Assembly: GCF_014396785.1 (NCBI RefSeq)
Contig: NZ_CP060718.1
Span: forward strand, 888,501-952,500
Direction of reading: 5' to 3'
Length of the DNA: 64,000 bases
Source: Sphingomonas lutea
Lineage (GTDB): Bacteria; Pseudomonadota; Alphaproteobacteria; Sphingomonadales; Sphingomonadaceae
Part shown: piece after piece, positions 45,783 to 54,087 of the stretch
Layout: each line of letters begins with the position of its first letter
Position numbering within the stretch: position 1 is the stretch's first letter
The notes under the pieces: generated by a model
Told to the model about the DNA's origin: nothing
Database searches by the model: none
Seen by the model: only the letters and a program-made list of their open reading frames with translations
Position numbers and translations under genes: made by a program

Positions 45783-47093
45783 CTAGCGTCGCTCGCGCGC
45801 CAAGCGGCTCATCAGGATTGCGGCGCGCTTGGCCTGCTTGGCGATCGACGGGATGTCGACCACTTCGCCGGGCGCGTGCGCGCCGCGGCCGTCGGGGCCA
45901 AGACCCGCCAGGCTGTCGACATCCTTAGCGACGAAGCCGATGTCGCCCGCGCCGCGCTTTTCGGGGTCGAGCTCGCCCATTTCCGGCAGCCCCATGTCGC
46001 GGTTGACGGCATTGAGCTTGGCCAGGACGGCGCGGTTACCCTCGGTCGGCGCCATCGGCGGATAGCCGCCGTCGTCGAAGACGATCTCGGCCTTCGCGCC
46101 CGCCAGCGGCTGGGCGACGATCGCCCGCATCTTGTCCTTGGTCCGCGCGATCTGCTCGGGCGTCAGCGCGCGCAAATCGCCGCGGGCGATCGCGATCGGG
46201 GCGATGATATTGGTCTTGCCCGTCGCGCTCGCGCTGATCGACCCGGCGCCCAGCTTGGCCGTCTCGCCACCGGTGATCAGCCCGACATTATAGGTCAATT
46301 TGTCCTCGCGCAGCTCGCGCCGGAAGCTGTCGAGGATCCGCGCCAGCTCGTAATTGGCGCCAAAGCCGACGCCCTCGCGGAAGATGCCGCTCGAATGGCC
46401 GCTTTTGGCCGTCACCGTCACCGTCCAGCTGTCCGAGCTGCGCCGCGCGGTCGACCCCATGTCGCGCCCATTGTCCGTCGCCAGACCTTCGAAATCTAGC
46501 GCGACGTCGGCCCATTTGCCCGCCGCGATCAGCGGCGCGCGCGTCGTTTCGATCGGGCTTGCCGCATCCTCCTCGTCGCCGGTCATGACGACCATGATGT
46601 CGGCGCCTTTCAGCGTCCCCGCCGCCTGCATCGCGCGCAGCGCCGCGACGATCACCGCAATCCCGCCCTTGTCGTCCGCCGCGCCCGGGCCTTCGCCGTC
46701 ATTGCCCTTGCGCGTCCAGCGCTGGAACGGCGAATGCGGTTCGAACACCGTGTCGAGGTGGGCGATGAGCAGCATCTTTTTGCCGCGCCCGTTGCCTTTG
46801 TGCGTGGCGACCAGATGGCCCGCGCGGCCGATATGCTTGAGGTCGATCCATTCGGTCTTGAAGCCCAGTGCGTCGAACTCCGGCCGCACCATCTTCCCCA
46901 CCGCCTCGACGCCCGCGACATTCAGCGACCCGCTGTTCTGGTTCACCCAGCGCTCGAGCAGGCCGATCGTCCGCTCCTGCTCGGCATCGACCGTGGCGAT
47001 CATCTTCTGCTCGGCGGAGGTGAGCCGCGCCGACGCGGGTGTTGCAAGAAGGGCGGAACAGGCGGCGATCGCGACCAGGAAGCGTGACGTCAT
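45783..47093 (-). CDS. secreted M20/M28-type metallopeptidase
   Basis: Zinc peptidase of 436 residues with a signal peptide (MTSRFLVAIAACSALLATPA). Metal-site motifs in order: MLLIAHLDTVFEPHSPFQ, GPGAADDKGGIAVIV (bridging Asp), VVMTGDEEDAASP (Glu-Glu), LDFEGLATD, and GRGAHAPGEVVDI with the last His. This is the carboxypeptidase-G2-like M20 layout. It converges on the S10 gene with a three-base gap, so the two peptidase genes end side by side. Likely periplasmic glutamate-type carboxypeptidase or aminoacyl hydrolase; the specificity is open. Confidence 0.88.
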   Translation of the reverse strand: MTSRFLVAIAACSALLATPASARLTSAEQKMIATVDAEQERTIGLLERWVNQNSGSLNVAGVEAVGKMVRPEFDALGFKTEWIDLKHIGRAGHLVATHKGNGRGKKMLLIAHLDTVFEPHSPFQRWTRKGNDGEGPGAADDKGGIAVIVAALRAMQAAGTLKGADIMVVMTGDEEDAASPIETTRAPLIAAGKWADVALDFEGLATDNGRDMGSTARRSSDSWTVTVTAKSGHSSGIFREGVGFGANYELARILDSFRRELREDKLTYNVGLITGGETAKLGAGSISASATGKTNIIAPIAIARGDLRALTPEQIARTKDKMRAIVAQPLAGAKAEIVFDDGGYPPMAPTEGNRAVLAKLNAVNRDMGLPEMGELDPEKRGAGDIGFVAKDVDSLAGLGPDGRGAHAPGEVVDIPSIAKQAKRAAILMSRLARERR

Positions 47094-47210
47094 GACGCCA
47101 GCCTAGCGCCGCCACCAGCCCGCGTCATCCCCTCCATGCGAACCAGAGAGCTTTCCTACAACCAACCAAAAAGGTTAGTCCGGCTCGACTCGGAGATCAG
47201 GGAGGCACTT

Positions 47211-47758
47211 TTGGACGACGAACTGGACAGCTTGCTCGACGCGCTCATCGATCGCGAGGGAGGTTATGTGAACCATCCCGCCGACAAGGGCGGGCCGACC
47301 TGCTTCGGGATCACCGAAGGGGTTGCGCGGGCACACGGCTATCGCGGCGCGATGCGCCAGTTGCCGCGTGCGGAGGCGGTCGCGATCTACAAGCGGCTCT
47401 ACTGGCTGCGGCCGCGTTTCGACCAGATCGCGTTGCGCAGCCCGCGCGTCGCGGCCGAATTGTTCGACACCGGCGTCAACATGGGCCCGGCGGTCGCCGC
47501 GACCTTCCTTCAGCGCGCGCTGACCGCGCTCAACCGCAACACGACCGATTATGCCGATCTGACGCCCGACGGCCGCATCGGCGCGCAGACGCTCGCCGCG
47601 CTCGACGCCTTCCTGCGCATTCGCGGCAAGGCGTCGGGCGAACAGGTGCTGCTGCGCGCGCTCGAGGCGCTGCAGGCGAACGCTACCTGCGCCTGGCCGA
47701 GCGCCGCCCAGCCAACGAAGCGTTCCTCTACGGCTGGCTCGCGAACCGGATCGGTTAG
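47211..47758 (+). CDS. GH108 N-acetylmuramidase, phage-type endolysin (frameshifted near its end)
   Basis: Peptidoglycan-cleaving lysozyme. Catalytic Glu is in LIDREGGYVNHPADKGGP; the family continues TCFGITEGVARAHGYRG, IYKRLYWLRPRFDQI and AELFDTGVNMGPAVAATFLQ. A C-terminal peptidoglycan-binding domain (PDGRIGAQTLAALDAFLR) follows. The frame is lost at 47675-47676; one extra G gives LQGERYLRLAERRPANEAFL and the stop TAG 47756-47758, about 182 residues. TTG 47211 is preferred because AGGGAGG sits just upstream; ATG 47136 would add 25 residues unlike the family. No signal peptide, so it needs a holin for release, fitting the downstream gene. Confidence 0.87.
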
Positions 47759-47824
47759 CGCTGCCCGCGCCTTCGCGCGCGTAGCGAGTGCGACCTTTTG
47801 TGACTTTCCAAGCAGGAGAAGCCC

Positions 47825-48136
47825 ATGAAAACCCTACCGCCGCCCGGCACGTTCGCCGAGGGCCAACGCTATATTTACGGTCTGCTCGCCGCCGCCGGCG
47901 GCATGTTCTGCGGCGCCTGCGCGCTCCTCATGGTCGCGCTTTTGATGTGGGGCGGCTGGTCGGTCGAGCACCAGCGGCTGATCCTGGTGATTTTCGGCTG
48001 GTCGCTCGGCGGCTTCATTGCGGCGATGGTCGCGGTCATCGTCGGCCTCCTCGCCGGCGGTCCGGTGGGCCGCTTCAAGGTCGCCGCCAACCGCGACGGC
48101 GCCTCGATCGAGGCCGATTGCGAAGGCCGGCCATGA
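47825..48136 (+). CDS. two-helix membrane protein, possible holin
   Basis: A 103-residue protein with two membrane helices (about residues 17-43, YGLLAAAGGMFCGACALLMV; and 52-77, LILVIFGWSLGGFIAAMVAV), an N-terminal Pro-rich tip and a polar C-terminus ending in EADCEGRP. AGGAG lies six bases upstream of the ATG. It follows the endolysin by 66 bases and overlaps the spanin start (ATGA). Position, size and helix count fit a class II holin, but holins diverge too much for a firm call from sequence. Confidence 0.6.
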   Translation: MKTLPPPGTFAEGQRYIYGLLAAAGGMFCGACALLMVALLMWGGWSVEHQRLILVIFGWSLGGFIAAMVAVIVGLLAGGPVGRFKVAANRDGASIEADCEGRP

Positions 48137-48675
48137 TGCTCCTGCGCCTGCTCGGGCCCAAGGGCGTTGCCGGCATTGCCGTCGCCCTCTGCCTGTCGCT
48201 GCTCCTCCTGCTGCAAAAGGCCGAGACGCGCCGCTTCCGCGCGCTCAGCGACGCCAACGCGCAGCGCCATCGTGCCGAACAAGCCGCCCATGCCGGCACC
48301 GTCGCCAATTACCGCGCCGCCGCCGCCGCCGCCCGCGCCGCCGACAAGGCCAATGCCGCGCGCATCGCCACCGAGCAGCGCGCCATCAACGAAAGGACGT
48401 CCCATGATTTCGAAGCCCGCCTGGCCGCTGCTCGCGCTCGCGCTGACCGCCTGCGCCGCGAAGGACAAGGTGCAGCCGATCCCCGCGCACGCGGAGATGC
48501 GGCAATGCCCAGCTTACCCGCTACCGCCGCCATCCCTGCTCAAGGCCCCGTCGAAAATCGACTTCCTCACCCCGACGCCCTGATCGCGACCGAACAAGCG
48601 ATCCAGCTCGACGAACTGATCAAATGGGTTCGGGCGCAGCATGCCGTGCGGGTCGACGGCGGGCCTGGGGGATAG
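48133..48675 (+). CDS. i-spanin (Rz-like) candidate
   Basis: A 180-residue protein with one N-terminal membrane helix (residues 11-28, GVAGIAVALCLSLLLLLQ) and a long Ala/Arg/Gln-rich coiled-coil stretch (RALSDANAQRHRAEQAAHAG, later FEARLAAARARADRLRREG). This is the layout of phage inner-membrane spanins that span the periplasm. A separate lipoprotein gene lies entirely inside it in the +1 frame, the classic Rz/Rz1 arrangement. The C-terminal half (QAIQLDELIKWVRAQHAVRV) is shared coding space only in part. ATG 48133 overlaps the holin-like stop (ATGA). Confidence 0.7.
   Translation: MMLLRLLGPKGVAGIAVALCLSLLLLLQKAETRRFRALSDANAQRHRAEQAAHAGTVANYRAAAAAARAADKANAARIATEQRAINERTSHDFEARLAAARARADRLRREGQGAADPRARGDAAMPSLPATAAIPAQGPVENRLPHPDALIATEQAIQLDELIKWVRAQHAVRVDGGPGG
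48404..48583 (+). CDS. o-spanin (Rz1-like) lipoprotein nested in the i-spanin gene
   Basis: A 59-residue lipoprotein read in the +1 frame within the 48133-48675 gene. The signal is MISKPAWPLLALALTAC with the acylated Cys at residue 17; the mature part is short and Pro-rich (PAYPLPPPSLLKAPSK and the end FLTPTP), as in lambda Rz1. AAAGGA lies eight bases upstream of ATG 48404. This fits an outer-membrane spanin that fuses the membranes with its Rz partner at the last step of lysis. The frame choice is supported by the lipobox and ribosome site, not by length. Confidence 0.7.
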   Translation: MISKPAWPLLALALTACAAKDKVQPIPAHAEMRQCPAYPLPPPSLLKAPSKIDFLTPTP

Positions 48676-48804: not shown

Positions 48805-49350
48805 ATGACCTTGGAGCAGTTTCACGGGACCACGATCCTCGGCGTCAAGAAAGGCGGAAGGACCGTCATTGCCGGCGACGGCCAGGTCAGCCTTGGCAAC
48901 ACAGTCATCAAGCCCAATGCCAAGAAGGTGCGGCGGCTGGGCGAGACGGGCAGCGTCATCGGCGGCTTCGCCGGCGCCACCGCCGATGCCTTCACCCTGT
49001 TCGAACGGCTGGAGCGGAAGCTCGAGCAGTATAACGGCCAGCTGCTGCGCGCCGCGGTCGAGCTAGCCAAGGACTGGCGCACCGACAAATACCTCCGCAA
49101 CCTTGAAGCGATGATGATCGTCGCCGACGCCGAGCAATTGCTCATCCTCACCGGCAACGGCGACGTGCTCGAGCCCGAAGGCGGGGTTGCGGCGATCGGG
49201 TCGGGCGGCAATTACGCGCTCGCCGCGGCGCGCGCGCTGTCGGATTACGAACAGGATCCGGAGGTGCTCGCCCGGCGCGCGATGCAGATCGCGGCGGAGG
49301 TGTGTGTCTTCACCAACGACCGCCTGACGATCGAGACGGTTGGCGAGTGA
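48805..49350 (+). CDS. hslV: ATP-dependent protease HslVU, peptidase subunit
   Basis: Threonine peptidase of 181 residues, proteasome-like core of HslUV. A short propeptide (MTLEQFHG) precedes the likely catalytic Thr in [19 protein letters not shown], and [40 protein letters not shown] and [14 protein letters not shown] are all family signatures. ATG 48805 was chosen over the in-frame TTG 48769, which lies inside the promoter. Its partner hslU starts at 51419, two genes later, all on the same strand with small gaps or overlaps, so they are likely one transcript. Confidence 0.95.
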
Positions 49351-50526
49351 TGGAAATGATCCGTTCGTGCTGAGCGAAGTCGAAGCGCGCTGGCCCGCCC
49401 GTTCCAAGAGCGCCCTTCGACAAGCTCAGGACGAACGCACTCTGTTGGATCGCAGGGCATTCACGCTGGGCAGCTCCGCCGCGCTGCTCTCGGCCTGCGC
49501 GACCGTGCCGCGCAGCGCGGGTTGCACCCCGCTGCCGCGCGTCCTGGTTGACGAAAGCCGCATCATCCGCCGGGTCGCCGGCCTTCGTCCGTACCGCGCC
49601 GCCGGCTTCGTCGTCCGCCGCGAGGCGCTCGGCGACAAGGCATTGGTGCACAATTACGGCCACGGCGGCGCCGGAATCACGCTCAGCTGGGGCAGCTCGC
49701 GCCTTGCTGCCGACCTTGGGCTGCAAGGTCACAGCGGGCCGGTCGCCGTTCTCGGCAGCGGGGTCATGGGACTCACCACCGCGCGGCTGGTGCAGGAAGC
49801 GGGGTTTCCGGTCCGCATTTACACCGCCGCGCTCCCCGCCAACACGACCTCGGCGGTTGCCGGCGGACAGATTTCGCCCTTCGGCCATTTCCGGGAGGAT
49901 TCGGTCACGCCCGCGTGGATGGCGCAGTTCCAGGCGGCGATGGCCTATAGCTGGAAGCGCTTCCAGACCCTGGTCGGCGATCGCTACGGCATCCGTTGGC
50001 TGCCGACCTACGAAGAATCGCGGAACGCATCGTTCGCCGACGACTGGCTTAATCAGTATCACGCCAACGCCCGCGCGCTGCGCCCCGACGAGCATCCCTT
50101 CCCGGTCGAGAACATCGTCCGCTTCGACACCATGTATGTCGAAACCCCGCGCTTCATGGCCTGGCTGACCGATGAGTTTCTGAAGGCCGGCGGGACGATC
50201 CGCATGCGCAAGTTCGACACACTCGCCGACGTCGCGACGCTGCCCGAACGCCTGGTGTTCAACTGTACCGGCGTCGGCGCAAAGCAGCTGCTCGGCGACG
50301 ATATTCTAACGCCGGTGCGCGGCCAGCTCGCGGTGCTGCAGCCGCAGCATGAGGTGCGCTACGCTTTCGCCGGCGATGCGGGCTACATGTTCCCGCGCGG
50401 CGACGGCATTCTGCTCGGGGGACGTTCGAGCGCGGCGTCGACGACCCGACGCCCCAGCCGGAAGATATCGCGCGGATCGTCGCGTCGCACCGCGAACTGT
50501 TCGCCAGCTTCCGCTGCGCCGCATGA
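49340..50526 (+). CDS. D-amino-acid-oxidase-like flavoprotein (frameshifted; repeat-modified N-terminus)
   Basis: FAD oxidoreductase of the DAO type. Nucleotide loop: [20 protein letters not shown]; later [54 protein letters not shown] and [13 protein letters not shown]. The frame breaks at GGGGG 50417-50421; one more G gives [20 protein letters not shown] and stops at 50524-50526. Residues before [16 protein letters not shown] (a Tat-like or lipoprotein signal) are encoded by a palindromic repeat, so the true start may be TTG 49445 rather than TTG 49340. Substrate is likely a D-amino acid, inferred by family. The stop overlaps the next start (ATGA). Confidence 0.85.
49364..49436. repeat. palindromic repeat at the start of the oxidase gene
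   Basis: TTCGTGCTGAGCGAAGTCGA (49364-49383) and TCGACAAGCTCAGGACGAAC (about 49417-49436) are matching arms, with inner GCGCGC and GCGCCC. It belongs to the same family as 7746-7831 and 9813-9885 and lies between hslV and the oxidase signal sequence. Confidence 0.8.
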
Positions 50527-51422: not shown

Positions 51423-52768
51423 CTGCCGACATGAACTATCATTCCCCCATTCCGCAGGGCGGTGACGACGTGCTCAAGGACAAGCTCACGCCCAAGGCGA
51501 TCGTCGCCGCATTGGACGAACACATCATCGGCCAGGACGATGCCAAGAAGGCGGTCGCGGTCGCGCTGCGCAATCGCTGGCGCCGCCAGCAGCTCGGCCC
51601 CGAATTGCGCGACGAGGTCACGCCCAAGAACATCCTGATGATCGGCCCCACGGGGTGCGGCAAGACCGAGATCAGCCGGCGCCTGGCGAAGCTCGCCGAC
51701 GCGCCGTTCGTGAAGGTCGAAGCGACCAAGTTCACCGAGGTCGGCTATGTCGGCCGCGACGTCGAGCAGATCGCCCGCGACCTGGTCGAGGAAGCCGTGC
51801 GGCTCGAGCGCGAGCGGCGCCGCAACAAGGTCCGCGCCGCGGCGGAGGAGGCCGCGATGGAACGGCTGCTCGACGCGCTGACCGGCAAGGGATCGAGCGA
51901 GGCGACGCGGGCCACCTTCAAGCAGCGCTTCACCGAAGGCAGCCTCGACAGCGCCGAGGTCGAGATCGAGGTCGACGACGCGCCCGCCATGCCGTTCGAG
52001 CTTCCGGGCATGGGCGCGCAGGTGTTCGACTTGAAGTCGATGATTGGCAAGCTCGGCGGGCAGCAGCCCAAGGCGCGGCGCAAGCTCAAGGTGCCCGACG
52101 CCTTTGCCCGGCTGACCGATGAGGAAGCCGACAAGCGCCTTGACCCCGACGACGTTAATCGCGCCGCGCTTGCGGATGCGGAGGCCAACGGCATTGTCTT
52201 CCTGGACGAGATCGACAAGATCGCGGTCAGCGACGTGCGCGGCGGATCGGTCAGCCGCGAAGGCGTCCAGCGCGACCTGTTGCCGCTAATCGAGGGGACG
52301 ACGGTTGCGACCAAATACGGCCCGCTCAAGACCGACCACATCTTGTTCATCGCCTCGGGCGCGTTCCACATCGCCAAGCCCGCCGACCTGCTCCCCGAAT
52401 TGCAGGGCCGACTGCCGATCCGCGTTGAATTGAAGGCGCTGACACAGGAGGATTTCGTGCGCATCCTGTCGGCCACCCGCGCCAGCCTGACCGAACAATA
52501 TCAGGCCCTGCTCGGCACCGAGGGCGTGACGATCGAGTTCGCCGAGGACGGCATCGCCGCGCTCGCCCGCATTGCCGCCGAGGTCAACGAGAGCGTCGAG
52601 AATATCGGCGCGCGGCGGCTTCAGACAGTGATGGAAAAGCTTCTCGAGGACGTCAGCTTCGAAGCCGAGGACCGGCGCGGCGAAACGTTGCTGGTCGACG
52701 CTGCCTTCGTCGACGCGCAGCTTAGCAGCATCGCCCGCAACGCCGATTTGAGCAGGTATGTCTTGTAA
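51419..52768 (+). CDS. hslU: ATP-dependent protease HslVU, ATPase subunit
   Basis: AAA+ unfoldase of 449 residues that feeds Hsl[21 protein letters not shown] at the start, Walker A in [20 protein letters not shown], the pore motif in [20 protein letters not shown], the I domain (about residues 110-240), Walker B in [20 protein letters not shown], and the sensor region [16 protein letters not shown]. The C-terminus ([14 protein letters not shown]) inserts into HslV in known structures. ATG 51419 overlaps the hydrolase stop. A GC hairpin follows the stop at 52772-52795. Confidence 0.96.
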
Positions 52769-53635: not shown

Positions 53636-53712
53636 CGGGGCGTAGCGCAGCCTGGTAGCGCATCACACTGGGGGTGTGGAGGTCGCTGGTTCGAATCCAG
53701 TCGCCCCGACCA
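53636..53712 (+). tRNA. tRNA-Pro (anticodon GGG)
   Basis: CGGGGCGTAGCGCAGCCTGG at the 5' end pairs with CGCCCCG at the 3' end, followed by A and an encoded CCA (ends 53712). The anticodon arm TCACA-CTGGGGG-TGTGG puts GGG in the loop; the T arm is GCTGGTTCGAATCCAGT. It lies 30 bases upstream of yajC on the same strand. Confidence 0.95.
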
Positions 53713-53742
53713 TCGAATTTCAACGAAAGTCACAATTCGCGA

Positions 53743-54087
53743 ATGTTGGACCAACCCATTTTGCTGATGGCGCAAGCGGCACCGGCCGGAGAACCGAGCG
53801 GAACTTCGCAGATCCTTGTCGGGATCATGCCGTGGCTTCTGATTTTCGTCATTTTCTATTTCCTCATGATCCGTCCGCAGCAGCGCCGGGTGAAGCAGCA
53901 CCAGGCGGCGATTGCGGCGGTGAAGAAGGGCGACCAGGTGATCACCGGCGGCGGCATTCGCGGCAAGGTGGTCAAGGTCAGTGATGACGAGGCCGAGGTC
54001 GAGATTGCCAAGGATGTCCGCATCCGCGTCATCAAGTCGACCATCAGCCACGTGCTCGACCCCGCGACCAAGCCGGCCAACGACTAA
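53743..54087 (+). CDS. yajC: preprotein translocase accessory subunit YajC
   Basis: A 114-residue inner-membrane protein. One helix (ILVGIMPWLLIFVIFYFLMI, about residues 22-41) is followed by the signature RPQQRRVKQHQAAIAAVKKG, then DQVITGGGIRGKVVKVSDDE and a beta end. It binds SecDF near the SecYEG channel. ATG 53743 is used; ATG 53767 (MAQAAPAGE) is a possible alternative. Neither has a ribosome site, so a start close to a processed 5' end is possible, since the tRNA-Pro ends only 30 bases upstream. secD starts 12 bases after the stop. Confidence 0.92.
   Translation: MLDQPILLMAQAAPAGEPSGTSQILVGIMPWLLIFVIFYFLMIRPQQRRVKQHQAAIAAVKKGDQVITGGGIRGKVVKVSDDEAEVEIAKDVRIRVIKSTISHVLDPATKPAND

Follow-up and report, generated by a model that had tools for sequence, protein, structure and literature searches.

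A lysis cassette beside hslV in Sphingomonas lutea as the probable dispersed lysis locus of an RcGTA-like gene transfer agent

Four lysis-type genes, located at positions 47211-48675 of the window (the whole 64,000-nucleotide stretch of Sphingomonas lutea DNA that was analysed) and bracketed by a minus-strand M20 peptidase gene and hslV, probably constitute the dispersed lysis locus of a Sphingomonadales gene transfer agent (GTA) of the RcGTA-like kind, placed at hslV and orphaned in this host genome (G000; one contig of 2,417,654 bases, 98.8% complete). The locus has the gene content of a lysis cassette and a conserved place, a promoter element common to GTA-type genes precedes it, and three GTA markers are absent from the genome. 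As the head-tail cluster, sought by these three markers, was not found, the cassette is not attributed to a functional GTA.

According to the accessible parts of two reports (PMC3423380, PMC6854486), the lysis genes of the Rhodobacter capsulatus GTA lie outside its head-tail cluster. Our locus is likened by layout to the RcGTA pair rcc00555 (endolysin)/rcc00556 (holin), as far as that pair is described there, since a lysis pair lies away from the head-tail cluster. It differs from rcc00555/rcc00556 in that G000 has a two-helix protein and a nested spanin pair, and in that no head-tail cluster was detected.

Genes of the cassette

The features of the locus are collected in Table 1. The endolysin matches PF05838 (Glyco_hydro_108) at E 9e-27, with 93.8 bits against a curated cut-off of 21.2, and falls into the PHROG endolysin family phrog_315 (E 3e-38). 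Its C-terminal PF09374 match is incomplete (5e-6; model positions 2-51 of 76), and no signal peptide was seen on it by eye. Matches to this endolysin were obtained in 555 phage records; as the identities are 55-62% among the 20 listed of these 555, the protein does not belong to a GTA-only lineage.

Table 1. Features of the lysis locus and its neighbours (positions in the window)
Feature	Positions	Strand	Basis	Remark
M20 peptidase	45783..47093	-	PF01546, synteny	upstream neighbour, in many relatives too
Promoter/operator-type element with AACC-N5-GGTT dyad	47151..47177	+	exact sequence match, conservation	operator role putative
RBS-like GGGAGG	47200..47205	+	sequence	precedes TTG start at 47211
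Endolysin (GH108 muramidase)	47211..47828	+	PF05838, partial PF09374	conserved frame only to ~47675
Two-helix holin-like protein, 103 aa	47825..48136	+	hydropathy, position by endolysin	putative holin
i-spanin-like protein, 180 aa	48133..48675	+	hydropathy, orthologues	putative i-spanin
o-spanin-like lipoprotein, 59 aa	48404..48583	+	lipobox LTAC	+1 frame inside i-spanin gene
hslV	48811..49350	+	PF00227, synteny	conserved neighbour
hslU	51431-52768			downstream of hslV
yajC	53674-54087			downstream of hslU

Hydropathy places two hydrophobic helices in the 103-aa protein, at residues 23-41 and at residues 55-73. The protein gave no hit to a PHROG or, above cut-off, to a Pfam family, and none at E 0.01 among 50,697 phages. 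It is thus a small protein with transmembrane helices inside a lysis cassette, as holins are, and would presumably act as one. The 180-aa protein has a single N-terminal helix by hydropathy and was likewise without a Pfam match above cut-off, a PHROG match or a phage record (50,697 phages, E 0.01). Within its gene, 271 nt from the start, begins the 59-aa lipobox ORF, so that the two components of a spanin pair, an N-terminal helix protein and a lipobox lipoprotein in a nested frame, are both present; their spanin activity is predicted. Lambda-type Rz/Rz1 spanins are encoded by embedded genes, the o-spanin lipoprotein lying out of frame within the i-spanin gene, and the nested arrangement here is alike, although the i-spanin of G000 has no sequence match to phage records. 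When the i-spanin was used in tblastn searches, any match was seen in 20 genomes and a substantial one in 16. The nested lipobox ORF is present in the same frame, at offsets of 259-277, in 12 of these 16 (G000 included); among the other four, one is cut by a contig end and three were missed by the search pattern.

An earlier sequence-only reading had assigned an endolysin, a two-helix holin-like protein and an i-/o-spanin pair to this locus and had pointed to a preserved nested frame; all four genes were confirmed to be present, and the frame is indeed kept in the 12 genomes just mentioned. Its statement that the base composition is like that of the surroundings was also borne out, as the GC content of the cassette (0.692, compared with 0.665 in the window as a whole and 0.664 +/- 0.021 in same-size windows) is unremarkable. 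A horizontal island is disfavoured, since the GC content deviates from the window by about 1.3 sd or less and the location is common across the genus. The phage-like gene order, together with the identity to phage endolysins given above, would also suit an ordinary prophage remnant unrelated to any GTA, but the holin-like and i-spanin-like proteins, matching no phage record, argue against such an origin.

The endolysin gene itself raises a further question. In the G000 assembly it is FRAMESHIFTED at its 3' end, and intact endolysins of relatives nearly all terminate in a LQGERYLRLAERRPANEAFLYGWLANRIG-type motif. The G000 gene departs from the relatives' conserved frame at about position 47675; positions 47684-47755, read in another frame, encode a stretch with 96% identity to residues 170-193 of the endolysin of a relative (G015). 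Between hslV and hslU, a FAD-oxidoreductase gene (49442-50422) likewise loses the reading frame of the relatives compared towards its 3' end, and an assembly error is therefore possible for the endolysin as well, in which case the orphan cassette would be intact. We give this explanation somewhat less than an even chance: the second apparent frameshift nearby and the G015-like tail past the shift, which is without signs of decay, speak for it, but the same protein (P0001) has been reported from two contigs, which are perhaps not independent assemblies.

Location at hslV and the usual holin partner

Counting fragments, 68 of the 71 genus genomes have an endolysin match. The search was run in two batches, yielding 36 of 37 genomes (G000 included; G036 missed) and 32 of 34 (G068 and G079 missed). 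In G036, an i-spanin remnant sits between the M20 peptidase gene and hslV; in G068 and G079, hslV is present and the cassette is absent. The hslV gene lies downstream of the endolysin in 56 of the 68 genomes, G000 included, and among the 67 loci of relatives it is found 0.2-4.5 kb downstream on the same strand in 55, being absent from the fetched stretch in the other 12. The contig stops before hslV, or nearly so, in G012, G034, G080 and G028; hslV is about 0.7 Mb from the endolysin in G007; and it was not found near the endolysin in G003, G064, G069, G081, G087, G088 and G089. In other genera of the family, 28 loci around a three-helix (3TM) holin were inspected: the endolysin adjoins the holin in 12 and does not in 16, hslV lies within the 1.5-kb flank in three (L196, L199, L200), and yajC is present in six.

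The cassette is not a recent insertion, and its location at hslV is probably inherited. The sequence-only reading had proposed that synteny around hslV be compared, and in most of the genus, as well as in some further genera of the family, the site proved not to be empty. That reading had also named two findings that would count against it. One, a site empty in all relatives, is contradicted by the endolysin counts of the genus; the other, a full prophage adjoining the cassette, did not come true; in many relatives the neighbours are likewise the M20 peptidase gene and hslV. A place conserved to this extent also argues against a prophage remnant.

The two-helix protein is not the usual companion of the endolysin. 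The Pfam family GTA_holin_3TM (PF11351), which is the commoner endolysin partner in the genus, matches in 41 of the 71 genus genomes and in 118 of 147 genomes sampled from the order, genus members included, and in 42 of the 67 loci of relatives its match and that of the endolysin are 46-380 nt apart. This family was not found in G000, which has the unmatched two-helix protein instead. The latter stands by the endolysin in 15 of the 67 relatives' loci, giving 16 genomes with G000. On a tree of hslV, hslU and yajC, which covers 61 of the 71 genomes and in which some rows are less than half filled, one clade of 10 is entirely of the two-helix type (G036 by its remnant), further two-helix genomes (G062, G026, G016, G033, G083) are scattered beyond it, and the holin type has changed at least 6 times.

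Promoter element and head-tail clusters

Upstream of the endolysin lies an exact copy of the element CTKTCCTACA-N3-AACC-N5-GGTTA; even with as many as 3 mismatches allowed, the window holds no other (0.00 matches expected). A second AACC-N5-GGTTA match, at 47744-47757, falls within the 3' end of the endolysin gene and probably reflects conserved codons. Upstream sequences from the genus were usable in 66 cases, of which 48 carry a tight form of the element and 57 a looser one; in other genera, it precedes 10 of 11 endolysins. An exact scan of the public genome collection returned at least 120 matches, compared with about 4 expected by chance in the whole collection by a hand estimate that assumes uniform base composition. 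By record titles, 115 of the 120 listed are Sphingomonadales, four are unclassified and one is labelled Bacillus. The last (L360, Bacillus sp. 2B10) has a Sphingomonadales endolysin, holin and element, and is probably contamination or a wrong label.

The genes downstream of the 120 listed matches fall into a few kinds. Lysis genes follow in 45 (36 with endolysin and holin, five with a holin only, four with an endolysin only), TerS-like genes in 36, fibre-like genes in six, and a phrog_3758 virion protein and a GDSL-like protein in one each. No family could be given to what follows the remaining 31; nine of these have fewer than 500 bases left, and the 22 with at least 600 bases match none of the families sought, with the possible exception of L258. 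At this last locus (L258:1621-2316), the gene after the element encodes a PG_binding_1 protein that also matches CHAP weakly and may be another kind of lytic enzyme. The TerS-like proteins (at L263, L273, L256, L295 and L329, among other loci) match phrog_4044, the terminase small subunit, in five of the five tested, as does the TerS of the head-tail cluster of the relative G063. Their stand-alone genes start at a median of 11 nt past the element (34-locus cluster), and several genomes hold both a lysis locus and a TerS-like locus with the element. The fibre-like family, named by eye, occurs near the element at L261, L278, L280, L324, L339 and L348; the two proteins tested (L261, L348) gave no Pfam or PHROG match.

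Five viral contigs also carry the full element, and in three of them (L375, L377, L378) a gene with distant similarity to portals (30-31% identity) is located some 2.6-3 kb from it. Some prophage-like elements may, to judge from these contigs, use the same promoter as the lysis cassette, and the three contigs with a portal-like gene are a point in favour of a prophage remnant at our locus.

All 71 genomes of the genus were searched for three GTA markers, PF05065 (HK97 capsid), PF23666 and PF23845; three were found in 17 genomes, two in 8, one in 13 and none in 33. These counts serve as a rough label, since not every genome is complete and a capsid that is the only marker of its genome probably belongs in some cases to a prophage. 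GTA_TIM (PF13547) was dropped as a marker, since it matched in 0 of the 71 genomes, although it did match in Caulobacter. No match to any of the three was obtained anywhere in G000, and a prophage remnant is very unlikely, being disfavoured by the missing structural markers as well as by the conserved synteny.

Sister species do carry RcGTA-like clusters. Those of G063 and G009 contain an HK97 portal, an HK97 capsid, an Rcc01695-type tail protein with DUF2460, a TIGR02218 hub, a megatron-like Rcc01698_C protein and DUF2793, with TerL seen in G063 only. In cluster-bearing relatives, e.g., G063, G032 and G011, one contig holds both the lysis pair and the capsid gene, at a great distance from each other. 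The sequence-only reading had suggested a whole-genome search for a GTA cluster, and this was run with the three markers, finding none in G000 and clusters in sister species. The precedent it had invoked, GTA lysis genes that lie apart from the main cluster, gained support from these clusters, from the GTA_holin_3TM partner and from the promoter core described below. Its interpretation was supported in part, by way of this precedent, but had overlooked the absent head-tail markers, the endolysin frameshift, the unusual holin and the promoter element.

The full lysis element has no strict match, and one loose match, in 20 fetched capsid loci. Twelve of these loci (L162-L169, L171, L172, L178, L180) were chosen for having RcGTA-like genes and a readable cluster start. 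In nine of the 12, at a distance of 100-500 nt before the first identified gene (TerS, TerL or portal), the sequence NACC-N5-GG[T/C] is followed by TTGAC within 18 bases and by a short match further downstream; L162, L163 and L166 lack this pattern. As the pattern was shaped by eye on the first four clusters seen, the fairer figure is five of the eight others (L164, L167, L169, L172, L178). Elsewhere on the strand concerned, none of the 12 loci has a match to the pattern; a simpler dyad-plus-TTGAC pattern, run on both strands of the 20 loci, gave six matches, three at cluster promoters and three elsewhere. Lysis loci and clusters have only the AACC-N5-GG dyad core in common, and it is differently placed relative to the promoter: from the sequences, it seems to lie between the -35- and -10-like boxes in the lysis promoter, and upstream of the -35 in the cluster promoter.

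For R. capsulatus, the accessible text of PMC6363796 states that GafA binds both the GTA promoter and the lysis promoter, and that of PMC9765227 reports gafA homologues in all GTA-bearing alphaproteobacterial orders. The lysis locus of RcGTA, as described there, has a promoter tied to this GTA regulator; a candidate counterpart here, as a putative operator, would be the dyad core seen at nine of 12 clusters. By analogy, a GafA-type regulator is the natural candidate for recognition of the dyad. The scheme that we propose is as follows: a regulator (GafA/GafYZ-like by analogy) would recognise the AACC-N5-GGTT dyad at the head-tail cluster and at the lysis locus; the same regulator would act on the dyad at the scattered TerS-like and fibre-like genes; the holin would permeabilise the inner membrane; the endolysin would cut the peptidoglycan; and the spanin pair would disrupt the outer membrane, so that particles would exit by lysis of the producer. 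In G000, with no head-tail cluster detected, the cassette would be an orphan.

Another example of host lysis genes dedicated to GTA release is LypABC of the Caulobacter GTA (PMC13236601, accessible text). It differs from our cassette in not being a holin-endolysin system, and C. crescentus is reported in that text to be without canonical holin-endolysin homologues. In the accessible parts of the literature searched, we found no description of how Sphingomonadales GTAs exit from the cell, of a Sphingomonadales GTA lysis locus or of such a promoter. What is new here is the promoter element and the dispersed gene set that it marks. A conserved lysis locus with a searchable element allows a direct test and offers a route to the dispersed GTA genes (TerS-like, fibres) of the order.

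Endolysin decay and selection with and without GTA markers

If the cassette serves GTA release, its fate in genomes with and without head-tail markers is of interest. The endolysin was scored as broken or absent in 12 genomes: broken in G000, G008, G014, G016, G025, G030, G033, G076 and G081, where some breaks may be sequencing errors, and absent in G036, G068 and G079; three ambiguous cases (G028, G080, G091) were counted as intact. Broken or absent endolysins occur in 10 of the 33 marker-less genomes and in 2 of the 38 with at least one marker (Fisher one-sided p 0.006). The association holds when two or three markers are required (p 0.029 and 0.027, respectively), and among genomes at least 95% complete, counted by hand, decay is seen in 6 of 21 marker-less genomes versus 1 of 31 (p 0.013). 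A phylogeny-corrected pairs test on 61 genomes went in the expected direction and was not significant (means 4.5 vs 0.6 pairs, median p 0.22).

These results are to be weighed against an alternative, the second idea of the sequence-only reading, in which a stand-alone lysis module was kept after loss of the particle genes, either for the release of DNA, nutrients or vesicles or for altruistic death. Although we consider it unlikely, particle-free lysis retains some probability, since an intact endolysin is still present in many of the relatives without markers: it is not scored broken in 23 of the 33 (two of these ambiguous), or in 15 of the 21 that are at least 95% complete (hand count). Omega is also low in marker-less genomes, at 0.093 for the endolysin (25 sequences, drawn from 25 of the 33 genomes) and 0.074 for the 3TM holin (17 sequences). 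In genomes with all three markers, the values are 0.084 (17 sequences) and 0.057 (10 sequences), respectively, and those for hslV are 0.047 without and 0.037 with markers. In a clade whose members have at most one marker each (G001, G018, G019, G035, G067, G074), omega is 0.074 for the endolysin and 0.041 for the 3TM holin. Quick trees were used for these estimates, with the first 155 endolysin residues as input and sequences with coverage below 85% or with stops excluded. A dN/dS test for relaxed selection detected no clear difference by marker state. Moreover, Sphingomonas hankyongi (L273), apparently marker-less, still has the element and a TerS-like gene.

Purifying selection both without and with markers implies that either the losses are recent or lysis itself has been kept. 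The GTA state has changed at least 19 times on the tree, so the losses may be recent and omega may still reflect the past; together with the commoner decay of the endolysin where markers are missing and its frameshift in G000, this weighs against a stand-alone module, and we retain the orphaned GTA lysis locus as the preferred reading. The view of the sequence-only reading that the genes are under selection thus holds for the relatives, but the status of the G000 copy, with its endolysin frameshifted at the 3' end, is uncertain.

A broader reading, which we hold only tentatively and think doubtful in its entirety, is that the element defines an undescribed dispersed GTA regulon of Sphingomonadales, the lysis arm of which outlives the particle genes and is selected as a particle-free lysis programme in many genomes. 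If true, the regulon would comprise the lysis cassette, the stand-alone TerS-like genes, the fibre-like genes and, via the dyad core, the head-tail cluster. Within the genus, GTA clusters are found at several stages of decay, often with the lysis gene left, which bears on the question of why cells keep genes that kill them. Decaying RcGTA-like clusters were observed at L171 (G010), L164 (G020) and L180 (G065), the decay taking the form of frame breaks in several genes or of an internal loss that joins the capsid gene to the megatron-like gene.
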